Shown here one piece after another: positions 37,126 through 55,653 of a stretch of 64,000 bases of DNA. Every line of letters begins with the position of its first letter. Positions within the stretch are counted from its first letter, which is position 1. The DNA comes from Actinocatenispora thailandica (GTDB lineage Bacteria > Actinomycetota > Actinomycetes > Mycobacteriales > Micromonosporaceae). The position numbers and the translations under genes are program-made. The notes beneath the pieces were generated by a model. It was not told the DNA's origin, did no database searches, and worked only from the letters and a program-made list of their open reading frames with translations. The stretch lies in the NCBI RefSeq assembly GCF_016865425.1, contig NZ_AP023355.1:4958198-5022197 (forward strand), in the 5' to 3' direction.

Positions 37126-37200
37126 CGTCGGCGGCGACCGTCGCGCGGTACCGCCCGATCGCGTCGTCGGCCCGCGCTGCCGCCCGGCGTCGGCGCCGCG

Positions 37201-37290
37201 TTCCGGCCGGTTCGTCGCCGGTGCCGGGCGCCGCATTCCGGCCGGTCCGTCGCCGGTGCCGGGCGCCGCATTCCGGCCGGTTCGTCGTCG
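37201..37290 (+). repeat. 35-bp direct repeat, 2.6 copies
   Basis: Two full 35-bp copies (37201-37235 and 37236-37270, one base apart) and a 20-base partial copy (37271-37290) of a unit starting TTCCGGCCGGTTCGTCGCCG, in the gap between the PNGase A-like gene and the amidohydrolase. No coding role seen. Confidence 0.85.
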
Positions 37291-37352
37291 ATGACGGACC
37301 GGCGGCCGGGAATTCGTCGGCGGCACCGAGGCGACCGGCCCGGCCCCCGGGG

Positions 37353-37358
37353 CAGACT
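37353..37358 (+). promoter_or_regulatory. -10-like box of a possible leaderless transcript
   Basis: CAGACT followed by exactly 6 nt (GGCGCG) and the ATG of the amidohydrolase at 37365; no Shine-Dalgarno is present. This spacing is typical of leaderless actinobacterial mRNAs. Confidence 0.4.
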
Positions 37359-37364
37359 GGCGCG

Positions 37365-38840
37365 ATGCAGACACTGTTGCGCAACGGGCGGGTGATCGAT
37401 CCGGGTACCGGCACCGACCGGGTCGCCGACGTGCTGGTCCGGGACCGAACCGTCGCCGCGGTCGGTACCGGGCTGGCCGCGCCCGAGGGTACGACGGTGC
37501 TCGACGTGGCCGGCCTGGTCGTCGGCCCGGGGTTCGTCGACCTGCACAGCCACGTGCACTCCATCGCCGGCCAGCGGTTGCAGGCGATGGACGGCGTGAC
37601 CACCGCACTGGACCTGGAGGCGGGGCTGCTGCCGGTGGCGCGGGCGTACGCGGACGCCGCAGCGGCGGGCCGCCCGCTGAACTACGGTTTCTCCGCGTCC
37701 TGGGGTGCCGCCCGCGCCCAGGCACATCTCGGGGTCGAGCCGGACGCGCGGTTGGAGACGCAGCTGGCGCTGCTCGGCGACCCGGGCTGGCAGCGCACCT
37801 CCTCCGCCGCGGAGCTGCGCGCCTGGTTGGGCCTGCTGGAGCGGGAGCTGGCCGACGGCGCGCTCGGCATCGGCATCCTGCTCGGGTACGCGCCGCGCAC
37901 CGACCCGGCCGAGTTCCTCGCGGTGGCACGGCTGGCCGCGGCGGCCGGGGTGCCGACGTACACGCACGTGCGAGAACTCGTCGAGGCCGACCCGTCCACG
38001 CCGGTCGACGGGTCCGAGGAGATCGCGATCGCGGCGGCGGAGACCGGCGCGGCGATGCACCACTGCCACGTGAACAGCACGTCGCGCCGGCACGTCGACC
38101 GGGTGCTCGCGATGCTGGGGCGGGCGCAGGCGGCGGGCTCCCGGGTCACCCTCGAGGCCTACCCGTACGGGGCGGGCAGCACCGGCGTGGGCGCGTACTT
38201 CCTGGCGCCGGAGCGGCTGCCCGCCTGGGGCATCACCGCCTCGAACCTGGTACTGGTGGAGACCGGCGAGCGGATCGCGGACGAGACCCGGCTGCGGGAG
38301 GTGCGCGAGCGCGATCCGGGTGCCGAGTGCATCGTGGAGTTCCTGGACGAGCGCGACGAGGCCGATCGGGCCCTGCTGCGGCGTTCGCTGGCGTACCCGG
38401 ACGCGATCGTGGCGAGCGACGCGATGCCGGTGCTGTGGGGCGACGGGGTGGTCGAGTCGCGGCAGTGGCCGCTGCCGCCCGGCGGCTCGACGCACCCGCG
38501 CACCGCCGGGACCTTCGCCCGGTCGCTGCGCACCATGGTGCGCGAGTCGGCGACCTGGAGCTGGGCGGAGGCGTTCCGGCGCTGCGCCTACCTGCCGGCC
38601 CGGGTGCTGGACACCTCGGCGCCGGCGGCACGGGCGAAGGGGCACCTCGGCGTCGGGGCGGACGCGGACATCGTGGTGCTGGATCCGGCCCGGATCACCG
38701 ACACCGCAACGTACCTGGACTCCACCCGGCCGTCGGTCGGGGTGCGGCACCTGCTCGTCGGCGGGGTCCCGGTGGTGCGCGACGGCGCGCTGCTGCCGGA
38801 CGCCTACCCGGGCCGCCCGCTGCGCGCCGAGCCGAGCTGA
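37365..38840 (+). CDS. D-aminoacylase-like amidohydrolase (N-acyl-D-amino-acid deacylase type)
   Basis: A 491-residue amidohydrolase. LLRNGRVIDPGTGTDRVADVLV and TVLDVAGLVVGPGFVDLHSHVHS give the beta-sandwich and the metal-binding H61-x-H63; AMHHCHVNSTSRRHV and IVASDAMPVLWGDG supply later ligands, and GHLGVGADADIVVLDPARI closes the domain. The arrangement is that of N-acyl-D-amino-acid deacylases and D-glutamate deacylase relatives. It is cytosolic (no signal). It precedes an operon predicted to process D-amino-acid peptides, which supports the D-specific reading. Confidence 0.75.
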   Translation: MQTLLRNGRVIDPGTGTDRVADVLVRDRTVAAVGTGLAAPEGTTVLDVAGLVVGPGFVDLHSHVHSIAGQRLQAMDGVTTALDLEAGLLPVARAYADAAAAGRPLNYGFSASWGAARAQAHLGVEPDARLETQLALLGDPGWQRTSSAAELRAWLGLLERELADGALGIGILLGYAPRTDPAEFLAVARLAAAAGVPTYTHVRELVEADPSTPVDGSEEIAIAAAETGAAMHHCHVNSTSRRHVDRVLAMLGRAQAAGSRVTLEAYPYGAGSTGVGAYFLAPERLPAWGITASNLVLVETGERIADETRLREVRERDPGAECIVEFLDERDEADRALLRRSLAYPDAIVASDAMPVLWGDGVVESRQWPLPPGGSTHPRTAGTFARSLRTMVRESATWSWAEAFRRCAYLPARVLDTSAPAARAKGHLGVGADADIVVLDPARITDTATYLDSTRPSVGVRHLLVGGVPVVRDGALLPDAYPGRPLRAEPS

Positions 38841-38865
38841 CCGCAACCCGCACCCGACGTACGGT

Positions 38866-38946
38866 GCCGCGCCGCCGCCGACCCTGCCGTACCGGTCGGG
38901 TCGCCGCCATGCCGCGCCGCCGCCGACCCTGCCGTACGGGTCGGGT
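38866..38946 (+). repeat. 36-bp direct repeat, two copies
   Basis: Two 36-bp copies (38866-38901 and 38911-38946) differ at one base (ACCGG versus ACGGG) and sit in the 421-bp gap after the amidohydrolase. No gene is seen in this gap. Confidence 0.85.
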
Positions 38947-39026
38947 GGGCGCCTCGTCGCGGGGGACCAAACCGCAGGTCGACTCCTGTGTCGCGGTACG
39001 AACCCCGCGGTGGGGGCCGCGCCTAG

Positions 39027-39225
39027 GGTCTGTCTCGGGCCCCCCGGCCGAGCGAGGCGAGTCCCGTTTCGTTCGCTCGCAAGCGCAGGTCGGTTCGGGT
39101 ACCGGGCTCGCACCCGGGCCCGCCGGCAGGCCGCGAGCGGCGGGGGTCGCGAGGCCGGTCCGCGACTGGCCCTCGCGACCCGGGACGGGCAGCCGCAGCC
39201 GGCGCGCGGGATTCCGAAACAGACC
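39027..39225. repeat. 199-bp segment bounded by 12-bp inverted repeats, MITE-like
   Basis: GGTCTGTCTCGG (39027-39038) and CCGAAACAGACC (39214-39225) pair at 11 of 12 positions. The interior holds no ORF of note. The right repeat also forms a small hairpin with the following bases (CAGACC-TGGG-GGTCTG, 39220-39235). It could be a non-autonomous element, a structured leader of the operon, or chance. Confidence 0.35.
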
Positions 39226-39261
39226 TGGGGGTCTGGTGGATCCCGCGACGAAGGAGCGAAC

Positions 39262-40649
39262 ATGTCCCAGCTGTCAGAGGTCGGCGGGTGGGTCGAGGAG
39301 CGGCTGCCGACGCTGCTCGCCGACAACAGGGTGCCCGCGGCGGCGGTGGCGATCATGGCCGGCGACGAGATCGTCGACACCGCGTCGGGCGTACTGAGCA
39401 AGGCCACCGGGGTGGAAGCGACCACCGACTCGGTGTTCCAGGTCGGGTCGATCACGAAGCTGTGGACCTCGACGCTGGTCATGCAGCTGGCCGACGAGGG
39501 CCTGCTGGAGCTGGATTCGACGGTACGCAGCTACCTGCCGGAGTTCCGGATCGCCGACGAGGACGCGGCTGCCGCGATCACCGTACGGCAGCTGCTGTGC
39601 CACGTCGCCGGGTTCGAGGGCGACATCTTCACCGACACCGGCCGCGGCGACGACTGCGTCGAGAAGTACGTGGCGACGCTGGCCGACGTGCCGCAGCTGT
39701 TCACGCCCGGCCAGATGTTCTCCTACAACAACGCCGGGTTCTGCGTGCTGGGCCGGCTGGTGGAGGTGCTGCGCGGCAAGCCGTACGAGCAGTGCCTGCG
39801 CGAGCAGCTGATCACCCCGCTGGGGTTGACGCACACCGCGCACGGGCCGCACGAGGCGATCATGTACCGCGCCGCGGTCGGGCACATCTCGCCGTCGCCC
39901 GACGCCGATCCGGTGCCGGCGCCGATGTGGGCGCTGGCGCCGTCGAACGCGCCGGCCGGTTCGCTGCTGACGATGCGGCCGCGTGACCTGCTCGGCTTCG
40001 CCCGGATGCACCTGTCGGACGGCACCGCGGCCGACGGTACCCGGGTGCTGAGCGCGGCGAGCACCCGAGCGATGCGGGAGCGGCAGGTCGAGCTGCCCGA
40101 CCTGGGACTGATGGGCGACGCGTGGGGCTCGGTTTCGAGCTGTTCGACTTCCCCGGCGGCCCGGTGATCGGCCACGACGGCGGCACCATCGGGCAGAGCG
40201 CGTTCCTGCGGATGGTGCCGGGCGCGGGCGTCGCGGTGGCGCTGCTGACCAATGGCGGCAACCCGATGCCGCTGTACACCGAGATCGTCGGGACGGTGCT
40301 GCGGGAGCTGGCCGACGTGCAGCTGCCGGGCATGCCGGTACCGGCCGCCGAGCCGCCGGCGGTGGACGCGAGCCGTTACGTCGGCACCTACTCCTCGTCG
40401 GTGGCCGACCAGGTGGTGAGCCAGGACGAGGCGGGCCGGGTCTGGTTGCGGCGCACCCCGAAGGGCATCTTCGTCGAGCTGGGCGAGCCGGAGACGACGG
40501 TGGAGCTGGTCGGCTGGCGCGGCGACACGCTGCTGCCGCGCGAGCCGGAGCACGGCATGCACATGCCGCACGCGTTCGTCGGTGAGGACGGTTCCGGGCC
40601 GGCGCGGTACCTGCACACCGGCCGGGCCGATCCGCGGGTGTCGTCGTGA
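39262..40649 (+). pseudogene. Serine hydrolase, S12/beta-lactamase family (AmpC/D-aminopeptidase-like), one apparent frameshift
   Basis: Two frames together give about 462 residues. Frame one starts at ATG 39262 (AAGGAG upstream) with FQVGSITKLWTSTLVMQL, Ser63-x-x-Lys66, and FSYNNAGFCVLGRLVEVL (Y-x-N). Frame two starts at the sequence GLGFELFDFPGGPVIGHDGGTIGQ (H-D-G motif) and ends at 40649. They join at a GGGG run (40124-40127) where five G would restore the frame. No signal peptide, so a cytosolic D-aminopeptidase or DD-peptidase-like activity is likelier than drug resistance. It is closely related to the C-terminal half of the S9/S12 fusion at 47220. First gene of the peptide operon. Confidence 0.8.
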
Positions 40650-41578
40650 TCGCCGACGAGATCCGGGCGGTCTTCGCGGCGGCCGGCGCCACCGGGTTCG
40701 TGCACGCCCGCGAGGTCGGGGTGGCCGAACCGCGCAGCGCCGGGGTCGGCGCGGACGAGCCGGTGGTGCTCGCCTCGGTGTTCAAGATCGTGGTGGCGGT
40801 GGCGTACGCCCGGGAGGTCGCCGCCGGCCGGCTGGACCCGCGGGAGCACGCCACGGTGTCCGCGCGGTACCGGATCGGCGGTATCGGTACCGCCGGCTGC
40901 GCCGACGACGTGCGGATGAGCTGGCGGGACCTGGCCCGCAACATGCTGACGATGAGCGACAACGCCGCCACCGACGTGGTGTTCCACCGGGTCGGCCAGG
41001 CCGCGGTCGACGCGGTGCTCGCCGATCTGCGCCTGACGCACACCCGGCTACTCGGCTGCTGTACCGACCTGTTCGCCTCGGTGGCCGACGATCTGGGCAT
41101 CGAGCCGGGCGACGATCCGGACGCGACGCTGTCCACCGCGCCGGCCGAGCGGGTGTGGCGGCTGGCGGTGCTGGACCCGGCCCGTACCACCGCGTCGACG
41201 CCGCGGGAGATCACCGAGCTGCTCGACGCGATCTGGACCGACCGCGCCGCGACGCCGGACGCGTGCGCCGAGGTCCGGGCGATCATGGCGGAGCAGATCT
41301 GGCCGCACCGGCTCAGCAGCGGCTTCCCGGGTGAGATCACCGTCGCGGCGAAGACCGGGACGCTGCCGGCGGTACGCAACGAGGCCGGGGTCGTCGGCTA
41401 CCCGGACGGGCGGGCCTACGCGGTCGCCGTGTTCACCCGGGCCGCGAGCCTGGCCGAGCGGCAGCCGGCGATCGACGCGTCGATCGGTACCGCCGGCCGG
41501 CTCGCCGTCGAGCACCTGCGCCGAGAACGCGAACTGCCCGTCGTACCCGTCCCGGAACTGGCTGGAGGTGGCCGATGA
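40646..41578 (+). CDS. Class A beta-lactamase-fold serine hydrolase without omega-loop Glu
   Basis: A 310-residue protein whose GTG overlaps the previous stop (GTGA). S44-V-F-K47, S104-D-N106 and K236-T-G238 are the three class A motifs. The omega-loop E-x-x-x-N box, needed for beta-lactam deacylation, is not visible (the stretch before TTASTPREITELL reads AERVWRLAVLDPAR). There is no signal peptide. I infer a cytosolic penicillin-binding-like amidase or peptidase in the D-peptide operon rather than a resistance enzyme. The next gene overlaps it (ATGA). Confidence 0.85.
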   Translation: MIADEIRAVFAAAGATGFVHAREVGVAEPRSAGVGADEPVVLASVFKIVVAVAYAREVAAGRLDPREHATVSARYRIGGIGTAGCADDVRMSWRDLARNMLTMSDNAATDVVFHRVGQAAVDAVLADLRLTHTRLLGCCTDLFASVADDLGIEPGDDPDATLSTAPAERVWRLAVLDPARTTASTPREITELLDAIWTDRAATPDACAEVRAIMAEQIWPHRLSSGFPGEITVAAKTGTLPAVRNEAGVVGYPDGRAYAVAVFTRAASLAERQPAIDASIGTAGRLAVEHLRRERELPVVPVPELAGGGR

Positions 41579-43158
41579 GGTCGGCACGTACGATCGGATG
41601 TCTGTTGGGGGTGGCTGCGCTCACACTCGCCGGCTGCTCGACCGGCGGCGCCGCCGGATCGGGGGGCACGCTCGCCGATGGCAAGACGTTCACGATGTCG
41701 GTGGCCACCGACCCGGGTAACCTCAACCCGCTGCTGACCACGCTGTCGGTGACCCGCGGGGTGGACCGCTTCCTGTACAGCCGGCTGGTCGAGGTGCAGA
41801 ACGACGGGTCGGTCGAGGCGGGGCTGGCGGCGAAGTGGAAGGCCGACACCCGTACCGCGACGTTCACCCTGCGCCGCGGGTTGACCTGCGACGACGGGTC
41901 ACCGCTGACCGCGCAGGACGTCGCCGACAACATCAGCTACCTGGGCGATGCGAAGCACAAGTCGCCGCTGACCGGGCTGTGGGTGATGCCGGGCACCAAG
42001 GCCACCGCGGACGAGTCGAGCCGCACCGTCACGGTCACCAGCGGCAGCCCGGATCCGTTCCTGCTGTTGAACATCGGCACCGTGTCGATCGTCTGCGGCA
42101 AGGGGCTGACCGACCAGAAGCTGCTGGCCAAGGGCGGCGCCGGGACCGGGATGTTCAAGGTCTCCGAGGTGGTGCCCAACGACCACTACACGCTGACCCG
42201 GCGCACCGACTTCACCTGGGGCCCCGGCGACTGGAACCCGAAGCAGAAGGGGCTGCCGGACAAGGTCGTGGTGAAGGTGATCCCGAACGAGACGACCGCG
42301 GCGAACCTGATGCTGTCCGGTGAACTCAACGCGGTGTCCGTCAACGGCCCGGACCAGCAGCGGCTGACCGCGCAGAAGCTGTTCCACGCCGATGTGCGGG
42401 CGCCGCTGGGGCAGCTGTTCTTCAATCAGGCGGCCGGCCGGGCAACCGGGGACGAGGCGGTACGCAAGGCGCTGGTGCAGGCGCTGGACCTGCCGCGGGT
42501 GGGCAAGGTGCTCACCGACGGCCACGGCAAGGCGGCGACCGGGATGGTGACCGTGGCGCCGAACCCGTGTCGCGCGAACACGGTGCGGGGCAACATACCC
42601 GCGTTCGACGCGGCGGCGGCGAAGGCTGGGCTGACCGCGGCCGGCTGGAAGCCGGGCCCGGGCGGGATCCGGGTCAAGGGCGGCACGAAGCTGTCGCTGA
42701 CGGTGCTGTACCAGACCGGGATCGGTCCGACCGCGTCGGCCGCGGCGGAGCTGGTGCAGCAGACCTGGCACAAGCTCGGCGTCGACGTGAAGCTGAAGGC
42801 CATCGACAGTACCGGGCTCAACGAGGTGCTGTTCAGCTCCGGCAACTGGGACGTGTCGATGTCTCCGATCACCACCGGGCTGCCGAGCACCATCGTGCCG
42901 TTCGTGTCCGGTGCCGTGCCGCCGAAGGGCACGAACTTCTCGCACATCGACAACGCCGACTACACCAGGCACGTGCAGCAGGCGATGTCGATGGCCGGCG
43001 ACCAGGGCTGCGGTGAGTGGGCTGCCGCGGAGAAGGCGCTGTACCGCGACGTCGATGTGGTGTCCTATGTGGACTCGATGGTTCCGACCTTCGGCAAGAA
43101 CGCCAAGTTCGTGTCCAACGACGGGATCGACCCGGCGTCGATCCGGATGTACCAGTGA
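41575..43158 (+). CDS. Peptide ABC transporter substrate-binding lipoprotein (family 5, OppA/DppA-like)
   Basis: A 527-residue lipoprotein: signal RSARTIGCLLGVAALTLAGC with lipobox Cys near residue 21, then SVATDPGNLNPLLTTLSVTRGVDRFLYSRLVEVQNDGSVEAGLAAKW, the SBP_bac_5 signature. VRKALVQALDLPRVGKVLTDG is another family landmark. It captures a peptide outside the membrane for the permeases encoded next. Its ATG overlaps the previous stop. The ligand is inferred from the operon to be a D-amino-acid-containing peptide or N-acyl amino acid. Confidence 0.9.
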   Translation: MRSARTIGCLLGVAALTLAGCSTGGAAGSGGTLADGKTFTMSVATDPGNLNPLLTTLSVTRGVDRFLYSRLVEVQNDGSVEAGLAAKWKADTRTATFTLRRGLTCDDGSPLTAQDVADNISYLGDAKHKSPLTGLWVMPGTKATADESSRTVTVTSGSPDPFLLLNIGTVSIVCGKGLTDQKLLAKGGAGTGMFKVSEVVPNDHYTLTRRTDFTWGPGDWNPKQKGLPDKVVVKVIPNETTAANLMLSGELNAVSVNGPDQQRLTAQKLFHADVRAPLGQLFFNQAAGRATGDEAVRKALVQALDLPRVGKVLTDGHGKAATGMVTVAPNPCRANTVRGNIPAFDAAAAKAGLTAAGWKPGPGGIRVKGGTKLSLTVLYQTGIGPTASAAAELVQQTWHKLGVDVKLKAIDSTGLNEVLFSSGNWDVSMSPITTGLPSTIVPFVSGAVPPKGTNFSHIDNADYTRHVQQAMSMAGDQGCGEWAAAEKALYRDVDVVSYVDSMVPTFGKNAKFVSNDGIDPASIRMYQ

Positions 43159-43165
43159 GGCTTCG

Positions 43166-44164
43166 ATGACCACCGAGCTGCGACCGGCGCTGCCGGCCAC
43201 CGCGGTACGGGCGTGGCGCAGCCCGTGGCTGTCGTTCGCGGCGCGCCGGCTCGGCCGGTTCGCGGTCTCCCTCTGGGTACTGGTGACCGCCTCGTTCCTG
43301 ATGATCCACCTGGTGCCGGGCGACCCGGTACGCGCGGCGCTGGGGATGAACGCGCCCGCCTCGGTGGTCGAGGCGCGGCGGTCGCTGCTCGGGCTGGACG
43401 ATCCGCTGCCGGTGCAGTACTGGCACTACCTGCGTGGCCTGGTGCACGGCGACCTCGGCGTGTCGGTGTCCAGCAACGAGCCGGTGTCCAGCGTGATCGG
43501 CCAGCGGCTGCCGGCCACCGCGCAGCTGGCGGTACTGGCGTTCCTGCTGGTGCTGCTGGTCGCGGTGCCGGTGGGCGTGACGATGGCGGTGGCGACCCGC
43601 GGCGGGCGCCGGCGCGGAGCCGAGCTCGGGTTCGCGGTCACCGCGGTGGTGCTGGCCGCGATCCCGGAGTTCCTGCTCGCGGTCGCGCTGGTGTACGTGT
43701 TCGCGGTCAACCTGCACTGGTTCCCGGTCGCCGGCCAGCAGGGGCCGCTGTCGTTCGTCCTGCCGGTGGTGGCGTTGGCGGTCGGGCCGGCCGCGGTACT
43801 GGCCCGCATCGTCCGGGTCGAGCTGCTCGCGGTGCTCGGCCAGGACTTCGTCCGTACCGCGCGGGCGAAGCGGCTCCGGGCCCGGCGGATCTACCTGCGG
43901 CACGCGCTGCCGAACGCGGTGACCGCGACGTTGACGCTGGCCGGGCTGATGCTCACCTCGATGGTGGCCGGCACCATCCTGGTCGAGAACGTGTTCGCCT
44001 GGCCGGGCCTGGGCGCGAAGATCGTGTCCTCGATCCTGGCCAAGGACTATCCGATGGTGCAGGGCATCGTGCTGGTCTACGGCGTCGGCGTGCTGCTGGT
44101 CAACCTGGTCGTGGACGTGCTGCTCGGGCTGCTCGATCCGCGTTCGACGATCCGGGAGGCGTGA
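43166..44164 (+). CDS. Peptide ABC transporter permease (DppB/OppB-like)
   Basis: A 332-residue permease with about six transmembrane helices. FAARRLGRFAVSLWVLVTASFLMIHLVPGDPVRAALG is the DppB N terminus, and the cytoplasmic EAA loop reads DFVRTARAKRLRARRIYLRHALPNAV. It starts 7 bp after the binding-protein gene and overlaps the next gene by one base. It pairs with the permease half of the next protein. Confidence 0.9.
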   Translation: MTTELRPALPATAVRAWRSPWLSFAARRLGRFAVSLWVLVTASFLMIHLVPGDPVRAALGMNAPASVVEARRSLLGLDDPLPVQYWHYLRGLVHGDLGVSVSSNEPVSSVIGQRLPATAQLAVLAFLLVLLVAVPVGVTMAVATRGGRRRGAELGFAVTAVVLAAIPEFLLAVALVYVFAVNLHWFPVAGQQGPLSFVLPVVALAVGPAAVLARIVRVELLAVLGQDFVRTARAKRLRARRIYLRHALPNAVTATLTLAGLMLTSMVAGTILVENVFAWPGLGAKIVSSILAKDYPMVQGIVLVYGVGVLLVNLVVDVLLGLLDPRSTIREA

Positions 44165-47161: not shown

Positions 47162-47219
47162 CACCGAGGGCGGCGGTTCCGGGTCGGTGCCGCGATCGCC
47201 AGTTGACGAGGAGGACCAG

Positions 47220-50200
47220 ATGGCCGGACGTCCGAGCATCGACGACCTGTACGCGATCGCGCTGCCCGAGCAGCCCGCCGCGGCCCCGGACGGCAGCATC
47301 GCGTACGTGCTGCGTACCGCGCGGCGCGACCCGGACCGCGACCGGCGCACGGTGTGGCTGGTGCGTCCCGGGATGCCGGCCCGGCAGTGGACGTTCGGCG
47401 AGTCCGACACCGCGCCGGCGTTCTCGCCGGACGGCAGCCGGCTGGCGTTCCTGCGGGCCACCGACGGCCCGGCACAGCTGTGGCTGCTGCCGGTGGCCGG
47501 CGGTGAGGCCGAGCAGCTGACCTCGCTGCCGTCGGGTGCCGGTGCCCCGGTGTGGAGCCCGGACGGGACCCGCATCGCGTTCGGCGCGCCGGTCGACCTG
47601 CACGCGATGCCCGGCGAGGGCGAGGGCGAGGACGTGGCGGCGGCCCGGCGGCGGGCGCCGATCGTCACCGACCGGCTGGACGGCAAGGCGGCCGGGGCCG
47701 GCCTGCTGCGCACCCTGCGCAACCACCTGCACGTGCTCGACGTGGCGACCCGCGAGGTGCGCCGGATCACCGGCGGTGACTGGCACGCCGGGGATCCGGC
47801 CTGGTCGCCGGACGGTACCCGGTTGGCGTTCGCGGCGGCGCGGGACGCCGACGCGGACCTGACCATGCGGATCGGCGCCTACCTGGTGGATGCGGTGGCG
47901 CGCGACGCGCGGCCGGCGCCGGTCGGCGGCGCCGACTGGCAGCTCGGTACCGTCGGGTGGACGCCGGCAGGCGACGCGCTGCTCGCGGTGGGCCGCACCG
48001 ACACCGCGGTCGGCAACGCGGGGCTGCTGCGCATCCCGCTGGACGGCGGCGAGCCGGTCGACCTGGCCGCACCGCTGGACCGCAACGTGATGCCCGGCGG
48101 GCCCGGCTATCCGGGTGCGCTGCCGCAGCCCACCGCGGACGGCGATGCGGTGCTGTTCTGCGTCCGGGACAACGGATCGACCCACCTGTACGAGGTGCCG
48201 CTCACCGGCGGCGAGCCGCGGCTGGTGGTCGGCGGCGACGGCAACGTCTCCGGGGTCTCCACGGCGGGTGACACCGTCGGGTTCGTGCTCGCCACCCCCA
48301 CCTCGTACGGTGAGGTCGGCACCGTGGACCGCGGCACCGGCGAGATCACCGTGCACACCACGCACTGCCCCGCCGACGCGGTCACCTACCGGCGGGAGGA
48401 GCGCGAGTTCACCGTCTCGGACGGGACCGTGGTGCACGGCTGGCTGGTACGCGACCCGCAGCGGCCCGGCCCGCTGCCGTTGCTGCTGGACATCCACGGC
48501 GGGCCGCACAACGCCTGGAACGGCGCCGCCGACCCGGCCCACCTGTACCACCAGGTGCTCGCCGACCGCGGGTGGGCGGTGCTGCTGCTCAACCCGCGCG
48601 GCAGCGACGGCTACGGGGAGGCGTTCCTGACCGGCGCGATCGGCGCCTGGGGTGAGGCGGACGCGGCCGACTTCCTGGAGCCGATCGACCAGCTGGTCGC
48701 CGGGGGGCTGGCCGACCCGGACCGGCTGGCGGTCACCGGGTACAGCTACGGCGGCTACCTGACCTGCTACCTGACGGGCCGGGACCGGCGGTTCGCCGCG
48801 GCGGTCGCCGGCGGGGTGGTCGCCGACCTGACCAGCATGGTCGGCACCTCCGATCTGGGGCACTACCTCGCCACCGCGGAGCTGTCCGCCGTGCCGTGGC
48901 GCGACCCCGACCGCTACGCGCGGCTGTCCCCGCTGACCCGGGTGCAGGACGTACGGACCCCGACGCTGCTGGTGCAGGGCGAGAACGACGACCGGTGCCC
49001 GGTCGGTCAGGCCGAGCAGTGGTTCGGCGCGCTGCGCGCCCGGGGCGTACCGGCCCGGCTGGTGCGCTACCCGGACGAGTCGCACCTGTTCATCCTGGAC
49101 GGCGCCCCGTCGCACCGGGCCGACTGGAACAGCCGGGTCGTCGACTGGGTCGAGCGGTACGCGGCGCCGCCGGCGCGACGTGGCCGCCCGGCGCTGGACG
49201 GCGCGCACTGGCAGCGCCGGCTGAGCGAGCTGGCGGCGGCACATCAGGTACCGGGGGCGACGCTGGGCATCCTGCGTCTCGGCGAGGACCCGGTGCTCGC
49301 CCACCACGGCGTCACCAGCGTGGCGACCGGCGTCGAGGTCCGGGATGACACGCTGTTCCAGATCGGGTCGATCAGCAAGGTGTGGACCGCGACGGTGGTC
49401 ATGCAGCTGGTCGACGAGGGCAAGCTGGAGCTGGACGCCCCGGTCGCCGAGGTACTGCCGGAGCTTCGGCTCGGCGACCCGGAGGTGGCGAAGCGGGTGA
49501 CGATGCGGCACCTGCTCACCCACACCAGCGGCATCGACGGCGACGTGTTCACCGACACCGGCCGCGGCGACGACTGCGTGCAGCGCTACGTCGAGGAGCT
49601 GGCCGCGGTCGGGCAGAACCACCCGCTCGGCGTCACCTTCTCCTACTGCAACGCCGGTTTCGTGCTCGCCGGCCGGGTCATCGAACAGCTCACCGGCCAG
49701 ACCTGGGACCAGGCGCTGCGGGAACGGCTGTTCATCCCGCTCGGCCTGGCGCACACCACGACGTTGCCGGAGGAGGCACTGCTGTACCGGGCGGCGGTCG
49801 GGCACGTGGCCGAGGGCGACGCCGAGCCGCGGCCGGCGCCGGTGTGGGGGCTGCCCCGCTCGGTCGGGCCGGCCGGGCTGATCACCGCCTCGGCCGGCGA
49901 CGTGCTCGCGTTCGCCGCGATGCACCTGTCCGGCGGGGTGGCCGCCGACGGTACCCGGGTGCTGGGCGAGCGGTGCGCGGCGGCGATGACCGAACACCAG
50001 ACCGACGTACCCGACCCGTACCCGCTGGGCGACTCGTGGGGGCTGGGCTGGATCCGGTTCGGCTGGCACGGCAGCCGGTTGATCGGGCACGACGGCAACA
50101 CGATCGGGCAGTCGGCGTTCCTGCGGCTGCTGCCCGAGCAGGGGATCGCGGTCGCCCTGCTCACCAACGGTGGCAACACCCGCGACCTGTACGAGGAGCT

Positions 50201-50561
50201 GTACCGGGAGATCTTCGCCGAGCTGGCCGGGGTGGCGATGCCGGAGCCGTTCGGGCCGCCGGCACGGCCCCCGGTCCACGACCCGGGCCGGCATGTCGGG
50301 GTGTACGAGCGGGCCAGCTCCCGGATCGAGGTGTTCCAGGTCGACGGCGAGCTGCGGATGCGGCACACGGTCACCGGCCCGCTGGCCGAGCTGCACCCGG
50401 AACCCGCCGAGGAGTACCCGCTGCTCCCGGTCACCGAGGACCTGTTCGCGCTGCGCGCGCCCGGTACCCGGACCTGGCTGTCGGCGGTGTTCTACCGGCT
50501 GCCGACCGGCGAGCCGTACCTGCACTTCGGTGCCCGCGCCACCCCGAAGGTGTCGGCATGA
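47220..50561 (+). CDS. S9 prolyl-oligopeptidase-type peptidase fused to S12 beta-lactamase-family domain
   Basis: A 1113-residue protein with GAGGAGG before ATG 47220. Residues 1-400 form a WD-like propeller (repeats such as PAFSPDGSRLAFLRA, PVWSPDGTRIAFGAP, PAWSPDGTRLAFAAA). Residues 420-660 are the S9 catalytic domain: GYSYGGY with Ser509, VQGENDDRCPV and DESHLFI complete the triad. From about 670 an S12 domain follows: S717-I-S-K720, FSYCNAGFVLAGRVIEQL and GHDGNTIGQSAFLRLLPEQG. No signal peptide. It likely trims imported peptides, one half acting on L-peptide bonds and the other on D-residues. The next gene overlaps it by ATGA. Confidence 0.88.
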   Translation: MAGRPSIDDLYAIALPEQPAAAPDGSIAYVLRTARRDPDRDRRTVWLVRPGMPARQWTFGESDTAPAFSPDGSRLAFLRATDGPAQLWLLPVAGGEAEQLTSLPSGAGAPVWSPDGTRIAFGAPVDLHAMPGEGEGEDVAAARRRAPIVTDRLDGKAAGAGLLRTLRNHLHVLDVATREVRRITGGDWHAGDPAWSPDGTRLAFAAARDADADLTMRIGAYLVDAVARDARPAPVGGADWQLGTVGWTPAGDALLAVGRTDTAVGNAGLLRIPLDGGEPVDLAAPLDRNVMPGGPGYPGALPQPTADGDAVLFCVRDNGSTHLYEVPLTGGEPRLVVGGDGNVSGVSTAGDTVGFVLATPTSYGEVGTVDRGTGEITVHTTHCPADAVTYRREEREFTVSDGTVVHGWLVRDPQRPGPLPLLLDIHGGPHNAWNGAADPAHLYHQVLADRGWAVLLLNPRGSDGYGEAFLTGAIGAWGEADAADFLEPIDQLVAGGLADPDRLAVTGYSYGGYLTCYLTGRDRRFAAAVAGGVVADLTSMVGTSDLGHYLATAELSAVPWRDPDRYARLSPLTRVQDVRTPTLLVQGENDDRCPVGQAEQWFGALRARGVPARLVRYPDESHLFILDGAPSHRADWNSRVVDWVERYAAPPARRGRPALDGAHWQRRLSELAAAHQVPGATLGILRLGEDPVLAHHGVTSVATGVEVRDDTLFQIGSISKVWTATVVMQLVDEGKLELDAPVAEVLPELRLGDPEVAKRVTMRHLLTHTSGIDGDVFTDTGRGDDCVQRYVEELAAVGQNHPLGVTFSYCNAGFVLAGRVIEQLTGQTWDQALRERLFIPLGLAHTTTLPEEALLYRAAVGHVAEGDAEPRPAPVWGLPRSVGPAGLITASAGDVLAFAAMHLSGGVAADGTRVLGERCAAAMTEHQTDVPDPYPLGDSWGLGWIRFGWHGSRLIGHDGNTIGQSAFLRLLPEQGIAVALLTNGGNTRDLYEELYREIFAELAGVAMPEPFGPPARPPVHDPGRHVGVYERASSRIEVFQVDGELRMRHTVTGPLAELHPEPAEEYPLLPVTEDLFALRAPGTRTWLSAVFYRLPTGEPYLHFGARATPKVSA

Positions 50562-51646
50562 TCGCCGAGATCGAGCAGCTGGTGCGCTGCGAGTCACCGT
50601 CCGACGATCTGGCCGCGGTCGCCCGCAGCGCCGACACCGTCGCGGCGCTGGGTACCCGGCTGCTGGGCGTCGAGCCGGAGCGGCTGGTGCTGGCCGGCCG
50701 TACCCACCTGCGGTGGCGGTTCGGCGCGTCCCGGCGGGTGCTGGTTCTCGGCCACCACGACACGGTGTGGCCGCACGGATCGCTGTCCACGCACCCGTTC
50801 GAGGTGCGCGACGGGGTGCTGCGCGGTCCGGGCTGCTTCGACATGAAGGCCGGGGTGGTGATGGCGTTCCACGCGCTCGCCGCGCTGCCCGACCGGGACG
50901 GCGTGACGCTGCTGGTGACCGGCGACGAGGAGCTGGGCTCACCGTCGTCGCGGGAGCTGATCGAGCAGGAGGCGCGCGGCTGTGCGGCGGCGCTGGTGCT
51001 GGAGGCCTCCGCCGACGGCGGCGCGCTGAAGACCGAGCGCAAGGGCGTCTCGCTGTACGAGGTGGTGATCGAGGGGCGCGCCGCGCACGCCGGGCTGGAA
51101 CCCGAACGCGGGGTGAGCGCGACGATCGAGGCGGCGCACCAGGTCCTCGCGGTCGCCGAGCTGGGTGACGCGGCGGCCGGTACGACGGTGACCCCGACCC
51201 GGATCGAGGCCGGTACCACCAGCAACACGGTCGCCGCGGGCGGCCGGTTCGCGGTCGACGTCCGGGTGCGCAGCAGCGCCGAGCAGGACCGGGTGGACAA
51301 GGCGATGCACGCGCTGGCGCCGCGGCTTCCGGGCGCCCGGGTGCGGGTGACGGGCGGGCCGAACCGGCCACCGCTGGCCGCCGACGCCTCCGCCGGCCTG
51401 TACGCCCGTGCCGGCGCTATCGCCGACCGGCTCGGCGTCGGCCCGTTGAGCTGCGCCGCCGTCGGCGGCGCCTCGGACGGCAACTTCACCGCCGGCGTCG
51501 GTACCCCGACCCTGGACGGGCTGGGCGCCGTCGGCGGCGGCGCGCACGCCGATCACGAGCACCTGCTGGTCGAGCAGCTGCCCCGGCGCACCGCGCTGGT
51601 CCGCGAGCTGATCGCCGAGCTGCTGGGCGAGGAGGGGCACCGATGA
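50558..51646 (+). CDS. M20 family metallohydrolase (ArgE/CPG2-like), candidate N-succinyl-L-amino-acid hydrolase
   Basis: A 362-residue M20 enzyme: VLGHHDTVWPHGSL (first metal His-x-Asp), GPGCFDMKAGVVMAFHALAAL (bridging Asp), TGDEELGSPSSRELI (Glu pair), GRAAHAGLEPERGVSA in the dimerisation lid, and GGGAHADHEHLLVEQL (last His). The family cleaves terminal amides such as N-acyl amino acids and glutamate conjugates. In the operon it would release the L-amino acid from the racemised N-succinyl derivative; that role is inferred from its neighbours GNAT and racemase. Confidence 0.85.
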   Translation: MIAEIEQLVRCESPSDDLAAVARSADTVAALGTRLLGVEPERLVLAGRTHLRWRFGASRRVLVLGHHDTVWPHGSLSTHPFEVRDGVLRGPGCFDMKAGVVMAFHALAALPDRDGVTLLVTGDEELGSPSSRELIEQEARGCAAALVLEASADGGALKTERKGVSLYEVVIEGRAAHAGLEPERGVSATIEAAHQVLAVAELGDAAAGTTVTPTRIEAGTTSNTVAAGGRFAVDVRVRSSAEQDRVDKAMHALAPRLPGARVRVTGGPNRPPLAADASAGLYARAGAIADRLGVGPLSCAAVGGASDGNFTAGVGTPTLDGLGAVGGGAHADHEHLLVEQLPRRTALVRELIAELLGEEGHR

Positions 51647-51810
51647 GCAGCGCCGCCCGAACCGACCACCCGGTTGCCAGCTCCTTTGCTCTGGACACCC
51701 ATATGCACCACCGCGTGGTGCGCTCAGGTGCGCAGAGCAAAGGACGCCGAACAGATGGGTACCCGGTCGGCGTGCCGACGGCCGCATCGCACCGGACGGT
51801 GACCCGGTGA
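51643..51810 (+). CDS. Small ORF of 55 codons coupled to both neighbours
   Basis: The ATG overlaps the stop of the M20 gene (ATGA at 51643-51646) and its TGA overlaps the GTG of the GNAT gene (GTGA at 51807-51810). The peptide begins MSSAARTDHPVASSFALDTH and is rich in Arg, His, Ser and Thr, with no recognised motif. The DNA inside holds a 12-bp perfect inverted repeat (51682-51744). Either a real small protein or a spacer created by insertion of the hairpin element that happens to be open. Confidence 0.4.
   Translation: MSSAARTDHPVASSFALDTHMHHRVVRSGAQSKGRRTDGYPVGVPTAASHRTVTR
51682..51744 (+). other. Nested hairpin element, possible structured RNA
   Basis: Outer stem TCCTTTGCTCTG (51682-51693) pairs perfectly with CAGAGCAAAGGA (51733-51744). 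Inner stem GCACCAC (51705-51711), loop CGC, GTGGTGC (51715-51721), extendable by one or two pairs. ACCCAT (51697-51702) in the internal loop could pair with ATGGGT (51755-51760) outside the stem, which would make a pseudoknot. It lies between the M20 and GNAT genes and is less GC-rich than they are. Confidence 0.5.
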
Positions 51811-52739
51811 GCGCGGCGACCGATCTCGCCCAGGCGTCGCGGCAGGCCGGGGACACGGCGGCGGAGCCGTCGGCGCAGGCCGAAGTCGCGGCGGCGATCG
51901 GCGCGGCCGAGTCGGCGGCCCGGTCGGCCGGGGTGTACATCCGGGCGCTGGACGGGATGGCCGAGCTGCACCGGATGTGCGAGCTGTACGAACGGATCTG
52001 GCGGTTCGGCGCCGACAGCATGCCGCTCAGCGTGGAGCTGGTGCGCGCGATGTCCAAGGCGGGCAACTACATCGCCGGCGCGTTCGACGGCGACGAGCTG
52101 GTCGGCGCCTGCGTCGGGTTCTTCGCCCCGCCGGCGCACCGGTCGCTGCACAGCCACATCGCCGGGGTCTCGCCACGTACCCGAGGGCGCAGCATCGGCT
52201 TCGCGCTGAAGGTGCACCAGCGGGCCTGGGCGCTGGGGCACGGGGTTGCCGAGATCGCCTGGACCTACGACCCGCTGGTGGGGCGCAACGCGTACTTCAA
52301 CATCGGCAAGCTCGGTGCCCGTCCGGCCGAGTACCTGACGAACTTCTACGGGCCGATGCACGACGGGCTCAACGGCGCCGACGAGACCGACCGGCTGCTG
52401 ATCGAGTGGCGGCTGGGCGACCCGCGGGTGGTCGCCGCGTGCGCCGGGACGCCGGGCCGGTTCGACGCGGCGGCCGAGGAGGCGGCCGGCGCCCGGTACG
52501 CGCTGCGCCGCTCGCCGGCCGGTGACCCGGAGCCGGCACCGGTGCCGGCCGGCGCGCCGACCGTACTGGTGGCGGTACCGCGTGACATCGAGGGGCTGCG
52601 CGCCACCGACCCGGACCGCGCGGCGCGCTGGCGCACCGCGGTACGCGACGTGCTCGGTGGGCTGCTCGCCACCGGCGGGCGGATCCGTGGGTTCGACCGC
52701 GACGACTGCTACATCGTGGACACAGGAGGCAGTGCATGA
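51807..52739 (+). CDS. GNAT family acyltransferase, candidate D-amino-acid N-succinyltransferase
   Basis: About 310 residues. A GNAT core (IRALDGMAELHRMCELYERIWRF, LVGACVGFFAPPAHRSLHSHIAGVSPRTRGRSIGFALKVHQRAWAL with the acyl-CoA loop, then IAWTYDPLVGRNAYFNIGKLGA) is followed by a C-terminal part with VLVAVPRDIEGLRATDPDRAARWR. This is the COG3375-type protein I associate with N-succinylamino-acid racemase genes. It would acylate D-amino acids with succinyl-CoA. Its stop overlaps the racemase start (ATGA). A 40-residue Ala-rich N terminus may be over-called. Confidence 0.75.
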   Translation: MSAATDLAQASRQAGDTAAEPSAQAEVAAAIGAAESAARSAGVYIRALDGMAELHRMCELYERIWRFGADSMPLSVELVRAMSKAGNYIAGAFDGDELVGACVGFFAPPAHRSLHSHIAGVSPRTRGRSIGFALKVHQRAWALGHGVAEIAWTYDPLVGRNAYFNIGKLGARPAEYLTNFYGPMHDGLNGADETDRLLIEWRLGDPRVVAACAGTPGRFDAAAEEAAGARYALRRSPAGDPEPAPVPAGAPTVLVAVPRDIEGLRATDPDRAARWRTAVRDVLGGLLATGGRIRGFDRDDCYIVDTGGSA

Positions 52740-53842
52740 AGTTGACCGGGGTGGAGCTGCGTACCGTCGAGATGCCGCTGGTGGCACCGTTCCGGACGTC
52801 GTTCGGTACCCAGCAGGTCCGCGAGATCCTGCTGCTGCGGGTGGTGACACCGGAGGCGGAGGGCTGGGGCGAGTGCGTCGCCATGTCCGACCCGTTGTAC
52901 TGCTCCGAGTACGCGACGGCGTGCGCCGACGTGCTGCGCCGGTTCCTGATCCCGGCGCTCGGCCGGGTGCCGAGGCTCGACGCGACGCTGGTGGCGCCGA
53001 CCCTGGCGAGGTTCAAGGGGCACCGGATGGCGAAGGCGGCGCTGGAGATCGCGGTGCTCGACGCCGAGTTGCGGGCCCGCGGCGTACCGCTGTCCCGGGA
53101 ACTCGGCGCGGTGCGCGACCGGGTGGCGTGCGGCGTGTCGGTGGGCATCATGGACTCGATCCCGCAGCTGCTGGACGCGGTCGCCGGTTATCTGGACGCC
53201 GGGTACCTGCGGATCAAGCTGAAGATCGAGCCCGGCTGGGACGTCGCACCGGTTCGCGCGGTGCGGGAGCGGTTCGGTGACGAGGTGGCGTTGCAGGTCG
53301 ACGCGAACACCGCGTATCACCGGGCCGACGCGCGGCACCTGGCCCGGCTCGACCCGTTCGACCTGCTGCTGATCGAGCAGCCGCTGGACGAGGAGGACGT
53401 GCTCGGCCACGCCCAGCTGGCGAAGCAGCTCGCCACCCCGGTGTGCCTGGACGAGTCGATCGTGTCGGCGCGGGCCGCGGCGGACGCGATCGCGCTGGGT
53501 GCCTGTTCGATCGTCAACATCAAGCCGGGCCGGGTCGGCGGGTACCTGGAGGCCCGGCGCATCCACGACGTGTGCGTGGCACACGACGTACCGGTGTGGT
53601 GCGGAGGGATGTTGGAGTCGGGGATCGGCCGGGCGGCGAACCTCGCGCTGGCGGCGCTGCCCGGGTTCACGCTGCCGGGCGACACGTCGGCCTCGGACCG
53701 CTACTACGCCCGGGACGTGACCGAGCCGTTCCGCCTCGACGACGGGCACCTGCCGGTACCGGCCGGGCCCGGCATCGGGGTCGATCCGGTCCCCGACGCG
53801 CTCGACGCGATCACCACCCGTACCGAGTGGATCGCGGTCTGA
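52736..53842 (+). CDS. N-succinylamino-acid racemase / o-succinylbenzoate synthase-type enolase superfamily enzyme
   Basis: A 368-residue enolase-superfamily protein. RIKLKIEPGWD gives K161-x-K163, LQVDANTAY D189, LLIEQPL E214, VCLDESI D239 and SIVNIKPGRVGG K263: two acid/base lysines and three metal carboxylates. These positions coincide with the numbering I recall for the Amycolatopsis racemase. With the adjoining GNAT and M20 genes and no menaquinone genes nearby, racemisation of N-succinyl amino acids is likelier than menaquinone synthesis. Last gene of the operon. Confidence 0.85.
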   Translation: MKLTGVELRTVEMPLVAPFRTSFGTQQVREILLLRVVTPEAEGWGECVAMSDPLYCSEYATACADVLRRFLIPALGRVPRLDATLVAPTLARFKGHRMAKAALEIAVLDAELRARGVPLSRELGAVRDRVACGVSVGIMDSIPQLLDAVAGYLDAGYLRIKLKIEPGWDVAPVRAVRERFGDEVALQVDANTAYHRADARHLARLDPFDLLLIEQPLDEEDVLGHAQLAKQLATPVCLDESIVSARAAADAIALGACSIVNIKPGRVGGYLEARRIHDVCVAHDVPVWCGGMLESGIGRAANLALAALPGFTLPGDTSASDRYYARDVTEPFRLDDGHLPVPAGPGIGVDPVPDALDAITTRTEWIAV

Positions 53843-53887
53843 CGCCGACGCGGGCCCGGTACCGGAGGTGACCGCGTCCGGGCTCTG

Positions 53888-53920
53888 TTGGGATCGACGA
53901 AATCCCTCTAGGATTTCGTC
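53888..53920 (+). promoter_or_regulatory. PucR promoter with perfect 10-bp inverted repeat
   Basis: GACGAAATCC-CTCTA-GGATTTCGTC (53896-53920). A -10-like TAGGAT (53909-53914) lies in the right arm and is followed by 6 nt and an ATG at 53921, fitting a leaderless start; TTGGGA (53888-53893) could be a -35 with a short spacer. Position suggests autoregulation. It could also act as terminator of the upstream operon. Confidence 0.5.
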
Positions 53921-53967
53921 ATGCACGCCCAAACCCGGGGCGAGGAGCGCGCCCTACGTTCAGGGAC

Positions 53968-55653
53968 GTGCTTGTCGCCGTGACCGCCGGACGACCGCGG
54001 GCCAGCCTGGGCCGGATCCTGGAGGATCTCGGCGACACCCTGCTGGAGCTGGTCGCCGGTGATCCGGAGCCGGTCGACGAGGTCGGCGGCGTGGTCATCC
54101 ACGATCCGCTCGACGAGCTGGCGCTGCCCCGGCACGCGCTGGTCCTCGGTGTCGGCGTGCACCAGCCCGCCGAGATCGCCGCGCTGCTGGCCGAACTCGG
54201 CGAGCACGGGGCGGCCGGGCTGGTGGTGCGCGCGCCGGTCACCGCGGACGAGCGGCTCGCCGGCACGGTCGAGCGGTCCGGGGTGGCGCTGCTGGGCCTG
54301 ACCCGCGGCGCCTCCTGGACGCAGCTGGCCGCGATGCTGCGCTCCCTGATCGCCGAGGGCGACGTCGGCGACACTGGCCCGGAGACCCTCGGCGGGATGC
54401 CGTCGGGCGACCTGTTCACGCTGGCCAACGCGATCTCGACGCTGCTGGATGCGCCGATCACGATCGAGGACCGCAGCTCCCGGGTCTTGGCGTTCTCCGG
54501 CCGGCAGGACGAGGCGGACCCGTCCCGCATCGCGACGGTACTGGGCCGCCAGGTGCCGCAACGGTTCACCCGCATCCTGGAGGAGCGCGGGGTCTTCCAC
54601 GAGCTGTACCGCAGCGAGGACCCGATCGAGGTCGCACCGATGCCCGGTACGGCGGCCGAGATCACCCTGCGCCGGGTGGCGCTCGCGATCCGGGCCGGCG
54701 ACGAGATCCTGGGCTCCATCTGGGCCGCGGTGCGCTCGCCGCTGTCCGCCGAGCGCACCCAGGCGCTGCGCGACGCGGCGAAGCTCGTCGCGCTGCACCT
54801 GCTGCGGCTGCGCGCCGGCGCCGACGTGGAACGCCGGCTGCGCGCCGACCTGGTCGCCACCGCGCTGGAGGCCGGGCCCGGCGCCGCGGACGCGCTGACC
54901 CGGCTGGGCCTGGCGGACGCCGGCTGCCTGGTGCTGGCGCTCACGCCGGTGGGCCTGGCCGAGGACGAGGGCCTGACCGCCACGCACGCCCAGCTGGTCG
55001 CCGAGCGGCAGCGGCTCACCGACGCGTTCTCGATGCATCTCAGCGCCGTGTACCCGCGATCGGCGGCGGCGCTGATCGGCGACGTCGGGTACGGCATCGT
55101 CGGCTGCCGACCGGACCGTGGGGACGCCGAACAGCGCGCGGTCCGGGTCACCCGGGAGTTCCTGGGCCGGATCGGCAGCAGCCGCCGGGTACTGGTCGGC
55201 GTCGGATCGGTCGCGCACGACCACGCCGGGCTGGCCCGGTCCCGGGCGGGCGCCGACCGGGCACTGCGGGTACTGCGGCGCGGCAACGGTTCGACCGGCG
55301 TCGCGCGGATCGCCGACGTGTACGTCGACGCGCTGCTGATCGAGCTGGCCGATCTCGCCGCCGCCCGCGGCGACCAGCCGAGCGGGCCGGTCGCCCGGCT
55401 GCTCGCCTACGACGCGAAGCGGCGGACCTGCCTGGTGGAGACGCTGCACGCCTGGCTGACCGCGTTCGGCGACGTGGTGGCCGCCGCGACCACGTTGCAC
55501 ACCCACCCGAACACGTTCCGGTACCGGCTGCGGCGGCTCGCCGAGGTCGGCGGCATCGACCTGGCCGACCCGGACGCCCGCTTCGCCGCCATGCTGGAGC
55601 TGCGCCTGATGGGCTACTCGCCGCCGGCGGCCCGATCCGGGCCCGGTTCGTGA
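53968..55653 (+). CDS. PucR family transcriptional regulator
   Basis: 561 residues from GTG 53968. The N-terminal PucR ligand domain (DVLVAVTAGRPRASLGRILEDLGDTLLEL) leads through a GAF-like region (ISTLLDAPITIEDRSSRVLAFS) and a GGDEF-like CdaR segment to the C-terminal PucR helix-turn-helix (CLVETLHAWLTAFGDVVAAATTLHTHPNTFRYRLRRLAEVGGIDL). The open frame upstream still encodes RPTFR, expected of the domain, but has no start; adding one C to the CCC at 53952-53954 would join it to ATG 53921, which follows a good leaderless promoter. The true start is probably 53921. Likely regulator of the upstream D-peptide operon. Confidence 0.85.
   Translation: MLVAVTAGRPRASLGRILEDLGDTLLELVAGDPEPVDEVGGVVIHDPLDELALPRHALVLGVGVHQPAEIAALLAELGEHGAAGLVVRAPVTADERLAGTVERSGVALLGLTRGASWTQLAAMLRSLIAEGDVGDTGPETLGGMPSGDLFTLANAISTLLDAPITIEDRSSRVLAFSGRQDEADPSRIATVLGRQVPQRFTRILEERGVFHELYRSEDPIEVAPMPGTAAEITLRRVALAIRAGDEILGSIWAAVRSPLSAERTQALRDAAKLVALHLLRLRAGADVERRLRADLVATALEAGPGAADALTRLGLADAGCLVLALTPVGLAEDEGLTATHAQLVAERQRLTDAFSMHLSAVYPRSAAALIGDVGYGIVGCRPDRGDAEQRAVRVTREFLGRIGSSRRVLVGVGSVAHDHAGLARSRAGADRALRVLRRGNGSTGVARIADVYVDALLIELADLAAARGDQPSGPVARLLAYDAKRRTCLVETLHAWLTAFGDVVAAATTLHTHPNTFRYRLRRLAEVGGIDLADPDARFAAMLELRLMGYSPPAARSGPGS

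Follow-up and report, generated by a model that had tools for sequence, protein, structure and literature searches.

In the genome of the actinomycete Actinocatenispora thailandica (7.43 Mb in a single contig, NZ_AP023355.1) twelve consecutive genes on the plus strand run from an amidohydrolase to a PucR-family regulator at positions 37365-55653 of the stretch analysed here (64,000 nucleotides, positions 4,958,198 to 5,022,197 of the contig; hereafter the window). The order is amidohydrolase, S12 serine hydrolase (split), class-A-fold serine hydrolase, substrate-binding protein, permease B, permease C fused to ATPase D, ATPase F, S9–S12 fusion peptidase, M20 metallohydrolase, GNAT acyltransferase, racemase and PucR regulator. 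We suggest, with a probability of about two in three, that this cluster is a catabolic module for peptides containing D-amino acids. As a conserved module it is well supported, and its chemistry is presented here as a proposal built on sequence comparison.

The first gene (37365-38840) encodes a D-aminoacylase-like amidohydrolase of 491 amino acids that matches the NCBIfam model PRK09061.1 with 660 bits against a cut-off of 340. The following S12 serine hydrolase lies in two frames. Its first part (39262-40167; PF00144, E 7.6e-54) contains the SxxK and YxN motifs and its second part (40122-40649) the HDG motif, the latter matching positions 268-315 of the PF00144 profile with 21.6 bits, under the 27-bit cut-off. 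Next comes a serine hydrolase of 310 amino acids with the fold of class A β-lactamases and the motifs SxxK, SDN and KTG (40646-41578; PF13354, E 6.5e-48). A peptide importer of the ATP-binding cassette (ABC) type is encoded by four genes, namely a substrate-binding lipoprotein (41575-43158; SBP_bac_5, E 1.4e-53) with the lipobox LAGC and its cysteine as residue 21, permease B (43166-44164; BPD_transp_1, E 8.7e-34), permease C fused to ATPase D (44164-46089; BPD_transp_1, ABC_tran and oligo_HPY in a single frame of 641 amino acids) and ATPase F (46082-47161; ABC_tran and oligo_HPY). The fusion peptidase of 1113 amino acids (47220-50561) combines an S9 domain (PF00326, residues 445-648) with an S12 domain (PF00144, residues 665-991) and shows the motifs GYSYG as well as SxxK, YxN and HDG. 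It is followed by a carboxypeptidase-G2-like M20 metallohydrolase (50558-51646; PF01546, E 4.3e-26), a GNAT N-acyltransferase that is a candidate D-amino acid N-succinyltransferase (51807-52739; PF00583, E 1.4e-4, 22.6 bits against a cut-off of 20.7), a racemase of the N-succinylamino acid racemase (NSAR) type from the enolase superfamily (52736-53842; E 1.2e-180 to the structure 1sja over 367 of 368 residues) and the PucR-family regulator (53968-55653; PF13556, E 1.2e-19). These gene types had been named at these positions of the plus strand in an earlier reading of the bare sequence (the original prediction), and their presence there is confirmed by the Pfam and NCBIfam matches, with which a coding-frame profile agrees.

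From the amidohydrolase to PucR the eleven junctions measure 421, -4, -4, 7, -1, -8, 58, -4, 160, -4 and 125 nt. Six are overlaps of 1–8 nt and one is a gap of 7 nt; the four larger gaps (58-421 nt) make more than one transcription unit possible. The S9 peptidase and the two S12 domains of the original prediction are all present, but the S9 domain and the second S12 domain belong to the single fusion protein and the stand-alone S12 gene (39262-40649) contains a frame slip in the region of 40.12-40.17 kb. Its reading frame ends at 40167 and is continued in another one at 40122-40649, and the coding signal switches frame inside the gene at about 40.1 kb. Two orthologues from the same genus (L070 and L071) have a single longer frame, and the split can be either a real mutation or a sequencing error.

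By a simple hydrophobicity test (not SignalP, and with only the first part of the split gene) no signal-like stretch is found in the first 45 residues of the amidohydrolase, the S12, S9–S12 and class-A-fold hydrolases and the M20 enzyme, unlike the binding protein with its lipobox. The same is true for the annotated enzyme copies checked on two Streptomyces plasmids. Therefore the hydrolases are expected to act after import, as had been proposed for the serine hydrolases from the outset. The permease part of the importer reaches 149 of the 434 bits set for a model of D,D-dipeptide permeases. The ABC importer would take up oligopeptides, and import followed by cleavage in the cytosol by the S12, class-A-fold and S9 hydrolases is the part of the proposal that we consider very probable.

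Both S12 domains show the SxxK, YxN and HxG-type motifs, those of the split gene coming from both pieces, and among S12-type structures both are nearest to IS11 and 6ksu (which we take to be the cyclase SurE), with the R61 DD-peptidase, alkaline D-peptidase and the penicillin-binding-protein (PBP) type cyclase Ulm16 further down. For the first part of the stand-alone enzyme the ranking is IS11, 6ksu, R61 DD-peptidase and alkaline D-peptidase. S12 enzymes act on D-residues, with exceptions such as esterases. The S9 half of the fusion is nearest to 8wt1, an S9 family peptidase, and then to 5yzm; the structure predicted for the whole fusion was rejected as too poor for use (pLDDT 59.7, pTM 0.54, from an alignment of 9 rows). 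The class-A-fold protein has 2wuq (BlaB) and then 2j7v, presumably the DD-peptidase-like PBP-A, as nearest solved structures. A β-lactamase role was considered for the S12 and class-A-fold genes and rejected, since the scores are far under the family cut-offs: the class-A-fold gene reaches 81 of 200 bits for class A, and the first S12 part and the fusion reach 75.8 and 87.2 of 415 bits for class C and 74.9 and 62 of 266 bits for AmpH, the stand-alone S12 gene having been scanned in two pieces. Cleavage at D-residues would be the task of the S12 type, and cleavage at ordinary residues probably that of the S9 type. D-specificity, which for each hydrolase would follow from family membership, is likely for at least one of the S12 enzymes, and opposite stereospecificity of the two halves of the fusion is a tentative suggestion with slightly less than even chances.

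The amidohydrolase would release D-amino acids from N-acyl-D-amino acids. Its nearest solved structures are N-acyl-D-glutamate deacylase and D-aminoacylase, with a weak match (E ~1e-23), and relatives with 70-81% identity lie near the racemase in Blastococcus, Amycolatopsis, Kutzneria, Leucobacter and Streptomyces. A second type of amidohydrolase is found just 3' of the racemase in 11 of 80 loci from the family Micromonosporaceae, 10 of them from one genus; a single representative was compared with solved structures and proved to match D-aminoacylase (E 7e-88). This means that two amidohydrolase subfamilies adjoin the same racemase, which supports a chemistry of N-acyl-D-amino acids. In six importer-less loci of Micromonosporaceae (L106, L112, L114, L117, L119 and L122) the D-aminoacylase-type gene is located just 3' of the GNAT–NSAR pair.

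The racemase is closely related to the NSAR and o-succinylbenzoate synthase structures of the Amycolatopsis type (1sja, with 4a6g among the relatives; E ~1e-180, 367 of 368 residues), whose names in the Protein Data Bank (PDB) carry both functions. In all 161 aligned rows (the window and 160 loci, some genomes occurring twice) the residues K163, K263, D189, E214, D239 and R266 (Amycolatopsis numbering) are invariant. We take the two lysines to be the catalytic pair, D189, E214 and D239 to be metal ligands and R266 to be the second-shell marker of NSAR activity. The enzyme would racemize N-acyl-amino acids. The NCBIfam model TIGR01928 (menC) also matches, with 300 bits against a cut-off of 200.65. 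In the window genome no menB passes the family cut-off (best match 117 of 342.7 bits; menB is the one remaining gene of the o-succinylbenzoate route that was examined) and two genes of the MqnA/MqnD type are present; a MenC role of the racemase in this genome was rejected, being unlikely on these two grounds. Among 150 genomes of the family the racemase occurs in 76 (E <= 1e-80) and a menB-like gene in 12, at a threshold chosen by us (E <= 1e-75), while none of the 150 passes the curated menB cut-off. Both occur together in five genomes, and thus 71 of the 76 racemase-bearing genomes are without a menB-like gene. The tie to menaquinone synthesis that the original prediction had named as the finding which would speak against it is therefore not what the genomes display. 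Plasmid records in our set (L284-L289) label their racemases as menC, o-succinylbenzoate synthase. Given the linkage of the racemase to the genes of the cluster, this label is likely to be wrong, at least for actinobacterial copies.

GNAT, racemase and M20 genes are adjacent at 50558-53842, as in a known route of D- to L-amino acid conversion from Geobacillus, and the resemblance noted in the original prediction holds for all three enzyme types. The GNAT assignment is based on the Pfam match and on a confident model of the GNAT fold (pLDDT 93.7). In this model a confident C-terminal part of about 110 residues extends beyond the GNAT fold covered by the best PDB matches. The M20 enzyme matches 1cg2 with E 3.2e-35 and DapE structures more weakly. 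According to the proposed mechanism, the GNAT would N-succinylate free D-amino acids, NSAR would racemize the N-succinyl derivative and the M20 enzyme would desuccinylate the L-form; the removal of succinyl from the L-form would pull the reaction toward L. We regard D-to-L inversion by these three enzymes via an N-succinyl or another N-acyl form as likely. Homologues of the GNAT (31-33% identity) are found beside or within about 1 kb of racemases in Deinococcus radiodurans MP1, Priestia megaterium and Sulfitobacter indolifex. In Sulfitobacter the pair is accompanied by a full ABC transporter; in Deinococcus a binding-protein gene, annotated in two overlapping pieces, lies between racemase and GNAT (10183-11060 of the MP1 record). 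From this pairing outside actinobacteria it follows that GNAT and NSAR are probably the old core, to which importer and peptidases seem to have been added in actinobacteria.

Conservation was followed from the racemase in 80 fetched loci of the 82 racemase places listed for the family and in 80 named loci, the top-scoring ones among at least 588 relatives in a species-wide collection; named and unnamed counts are not additive because some loci represent the same genome. A GNAT gene is found no more than 2 kb upstream of the racemase and in its orientation in 76 of the 80 family loci (74 of the 77 that have at least 0.9 kb upstream) and in 74 of the 80 named ones. The named loci further contain M20 (50), PucR 3' of the racemase on the same strand (34), the S12 gene (32, sought with the first part alone), the importer (27), S9 (24), the class-A-fold gene (11) and an amidohydrolase of at least 45% identity (11). 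Ten of the 66 family loci whose upstream sequence reaches 12.5 kb or more possess the four importer genes together with the S12 gene and GNAT, and with looser thresholds 11 have the importer. In Amycolatopsis pretoriensis and A. kentuckyensis the order is amidohydrolase, M20, GNAT, racemase, S12, class-A-fold, importer and S9; no PucR is found in the fetched stretches of these two species, both of which end inside the S9 gene. One linear plasmid of Streptomyces carries the whole set including the S9–S12 fusion and PucR. By a rough estimate, two single-copy genes of a 7-Mb genome fall within 12 kb of each other by chance in about 0.35% of genomes.

The same linkage is seen from the fusion peptidase, which was sought in 394 genomes of the class and matches in 36 (E <= 1e-150). 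Besides that of the window there are 26 full-length fusions, all of which were fetched: every one of the 26 has M20 and GNAT close by, and 25 have the racemase, the contig of the 26th ending approximately at GNAT. Twelve further loci without full fusion were fetched as well, namely L283, where S9 and S12 are separate genes and a racemase is present, and eleven that match one half (L297-L307). In L205, L209 and L224 the two domains are encoded by separate genes, next to each other and close to the racemase. The fusion reads through as a single frame in 47 relative loci, several of which represent one and the same genome. The genes are accordingly kept together from the racemase side and from the fusion side, the reverse of the missing co-occurrence in relatives that the original prediction had listed as evidence against it.

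The racemase, importer and S12 genes occur in varied order across eleven actinobacterial families, i.e. Micromonosporaceae, Microbacteriaceae, Micrococcaceae, Nocardioidaceae, Pseudonocardiaceae, Streptomycetaceae, Streptosporangiaceae, Thermomonosporaceae, Geodermatophilaceae, Catenulisporaceae and Jiangellaceae. In a tree of 97 racemases the label “importer and S12 nearby” applies to 36 rows, from some of which S9, M20 or PucR is missing. It needs 17 changes versus 29.1 in shuffles; at least 12 of the 17 are forced by well-supported branches, and some arise from short loci or strict thresholds. Outside its own genus the window racemase clusters with two Microbacterium enzymes and one from a further actinomycete. 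These label changes, together with the cluster copies on Streptomyces plasmids, suggest repeated transfer and loss of the putative module. That it represents an undescribed, horizontally moving actinobacterial island for heterochiral peptides, with a double peptidase (S9 at L, S12 at D) feeding an N-succinyl inversion line, is a bolder idea that we put forward with reserve and with odds somewhat against it.

PucR probably controls the gene set, and a role as local regulator is reasonably likely. A palindrome with 9-nt arms and a 5-nt spacer (53897-53919), possibly an operator or promoter site, lies 5' of it and occurs once in the window; its arms are perfect in the window and in L070 and match in 8 of 9 positions in L071. 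It was considered as a shared operator and rejected, as a closely similar palindrome is restricted to the genus and absent from the others of 63 loci. A perfect inverted repeat of 12 nt (51682-51693 and 51733-51744) is present in the 160-nt gap between M20 and GNAT; in the two relatives from the same genus no inverted repeat of at least 9 nt was found 5' of GNAT, and the repeat was discarded as a candidate element. Known RNA elements were not detected at the gathering threshold between 34 and 57 kb. In the gap 5' of the amidohydrolase (37126-37364) a GC-rich unit about 40 nt long recurs as near-copies, as judged by eye. The gene directly upstream of the cluster (35344-37125) codes for a protein whose N-terminus is signal-like and in which a peptide N-glycosidase A domain is recognized (PF12222, E 4.6e-59); to our knowledge such proteins are unusual in bacteria.

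Several points weigh against a module for the catabolism of D-amino acid peptides. Substrates, stereospecificities, acyl donor and regulation are all inferred. The S12 family includes esterases and its nearest solved relative, IS11, is no established peptidase here; the stand-alone S12 gene is split in the window genome, and the M20 enzyme is closest to carboxypeptidase G2 and no proven desuccinylase. The 50 PDB matches listed for the GNAT model are generic GNAT acyltransferases over approximately 150-200 columns, so that the use of succinyl-CoA is without structural support. The importer set is absent in 56 of the 66 family loci with sufficient upstream sequence, and as 54 of these 56 have GNAT, the inversion is independent of the importer. 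Loci that match only one half of the fusion have a racemase within the fetched stretch in 2 of 11 cases, a lower bound because in L299 it apparently lies just beyond; compared with 25 of 26, the racemase is linked far more closely to the fusion than to either half alone. Three of the four genomes of the genus have the racemase, and the fourth has a menB-like gene instead.

The substrates may be general D-peptides, cell-wall peptides or nonribosomal peptides. The best of the rival explanations is recycling or scavenging of peptidoglycan stem peptides, a counterpart of the ykf route of Bacillus and of the murein-peptide routes of Escherichia coli with peptides of D-Ala, D-Glu and meso-diaminopimelate as substrates. 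It is unlikely in our view but has several arguments in its favour: the nearest relatives of the class-A-fold hydrolase (BlaB, then 2j7v), the distant similarity of the amidohydrolase to N-acyl-D-glutamate deacylase, and the MurR/RpiR regulators a few kb from NSAR in Sulfitobacter and Priestia. Also the combination of importer component, cytosolic peptidases and enolase-superfamily epimerase corresponds to the layout of ykfABCD (PMC3305447). However, no LD-carboxypeptidase, γ-D-Glu endopeptidase or Ala–Glu epimerase is found among the scanned cluster proteins (the two models for L-Ala-D/L-Glu epimerase reach 43.3 of 343 and 61.9 of 500 bits), and a patchy distribution is odd for housekeeping recycling. 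The NSAR substrates described in one report are N-acetyl-Met, N-succinyl-Phe and N-succinyl-phenylglycine, not Ala or Glu derivatives (PMC8142540); they tilt the balance weakly away from D-Ala and D-Glu, the argument being weak because these substrates are assay choices.

Breakdown of nonribosomal peptides or lipopeptides, or self-protection against them by import and destruction of the antibiotic, is clearly less probable. Such peptides typically contain D-residues and N-acyl caps, the fusion has an S12 half distantly related to 6ksu and Ulm16, and plasmids carry the cluster in Streptomyces, but the import of a toxic peptide would be an unusual defence and no biosynthetic genes occur among the proteins scanned at 33.6-62.1 kb. 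A pathway in the reverse direction, in which D-amino acids are made from L-forms and freed from N-succinyl-D-amino acids by the D-aminoacylase-like enzyme, is very improbable: racemization is reversible and two kinds of amidohydrolase adjoin the racemase, but importer and peptidases indicate breakdown, and the amidohydrolase type of the window accompanies the racemase in far fewer of the best 80 named loci than M20 does (11 versus 50, the other type being uncounted). That the racemase is MenC among incidental neighbours can hardly be maintained, since the menC model match, the names of plasmid genes and structures and the variation of racemase and menB-like gene within the genus are opposed by the menB and MqnA/MqnD results and by the conserved linkage to GNAT and peptidases.

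With catabolism of D-amino acid peptides as the preferred explanation, the significance of the cluster concerns the racemase, since NSAR is used in industry and is a familiar example of catalytic promiscuity. Its purpose in actinobacteria would be explained by a conserved module, which would also give testable substrates for a GNAT family and for the S9–S12 fusion of 1113 amino acids. It also bears on the recycling of D-amino acids from cell walls and peptide antibiotics by soil bacteria. If the island described above exists, it would be the natural setting of the Amycolatopsis NSAR long used in industry.

The whole combination of genes has no description that we could find in the open-access literature, judging by the titles and abstract openings of the papers listed, a search that left subscription journals mostly outside; the novelty claimed in the original prediction is to this extent sustained, and an account in a subscription journal is possible. 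Its parts can be compared with four known systems. The Geobacillus kaustophilus route, in which NSAR, a GNAT succinyltransferase and an M20 desuccinylase reportedly convert D- to L-amino acids (Sakai et al. 2006), has the same three enzyme types adjacent and a racemase of the same family. For GNAT and M20 the comparison is one of enzyme types; a homologue of the cluster GNAT lies near the racemase of D. radiodurans. In contrast with the Geobacillus route, the trio is here accompanied by the peptide importer, the S9–S12 fusion, the S12 hydrolase, the class-A-fold hydrolase, the amidohydrolase and the PucR regulator. The ddpXABCDF genes of E. coli serve the uptake of D-Ala-D-Ala with a Dpp-family importer and a D-peptide hydrolase and without an inversion step; importer family and a putative D-peptide hydrolase are shared, whereas inversion is proposed for the cluster only. 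The ykf operon of Bacillus, whose neighbours presumably are the dpp genes, is the third system. The ykfABCD genes likewise unite importer component, cytosolic peptidases and epimerase in one operon, but the epimerase is of the L-Ala-D/L-Glu type, the peptidases described are an LD-carboxypeptidase and a γ-glutamyl-diamino acid endopeptidase, and neither GNAT nor M20 is among the four genes (PMC3305447). Industrial cascades couple D- or L-specific amidohydrolases to NSAR (PMC7431475); the coupling is alike, but these are engineered combinations and no natural gene cluster. It looks as if the cluster joins the plans of the Geobacillus type and the ykf type with mostly unrelated enzymes.

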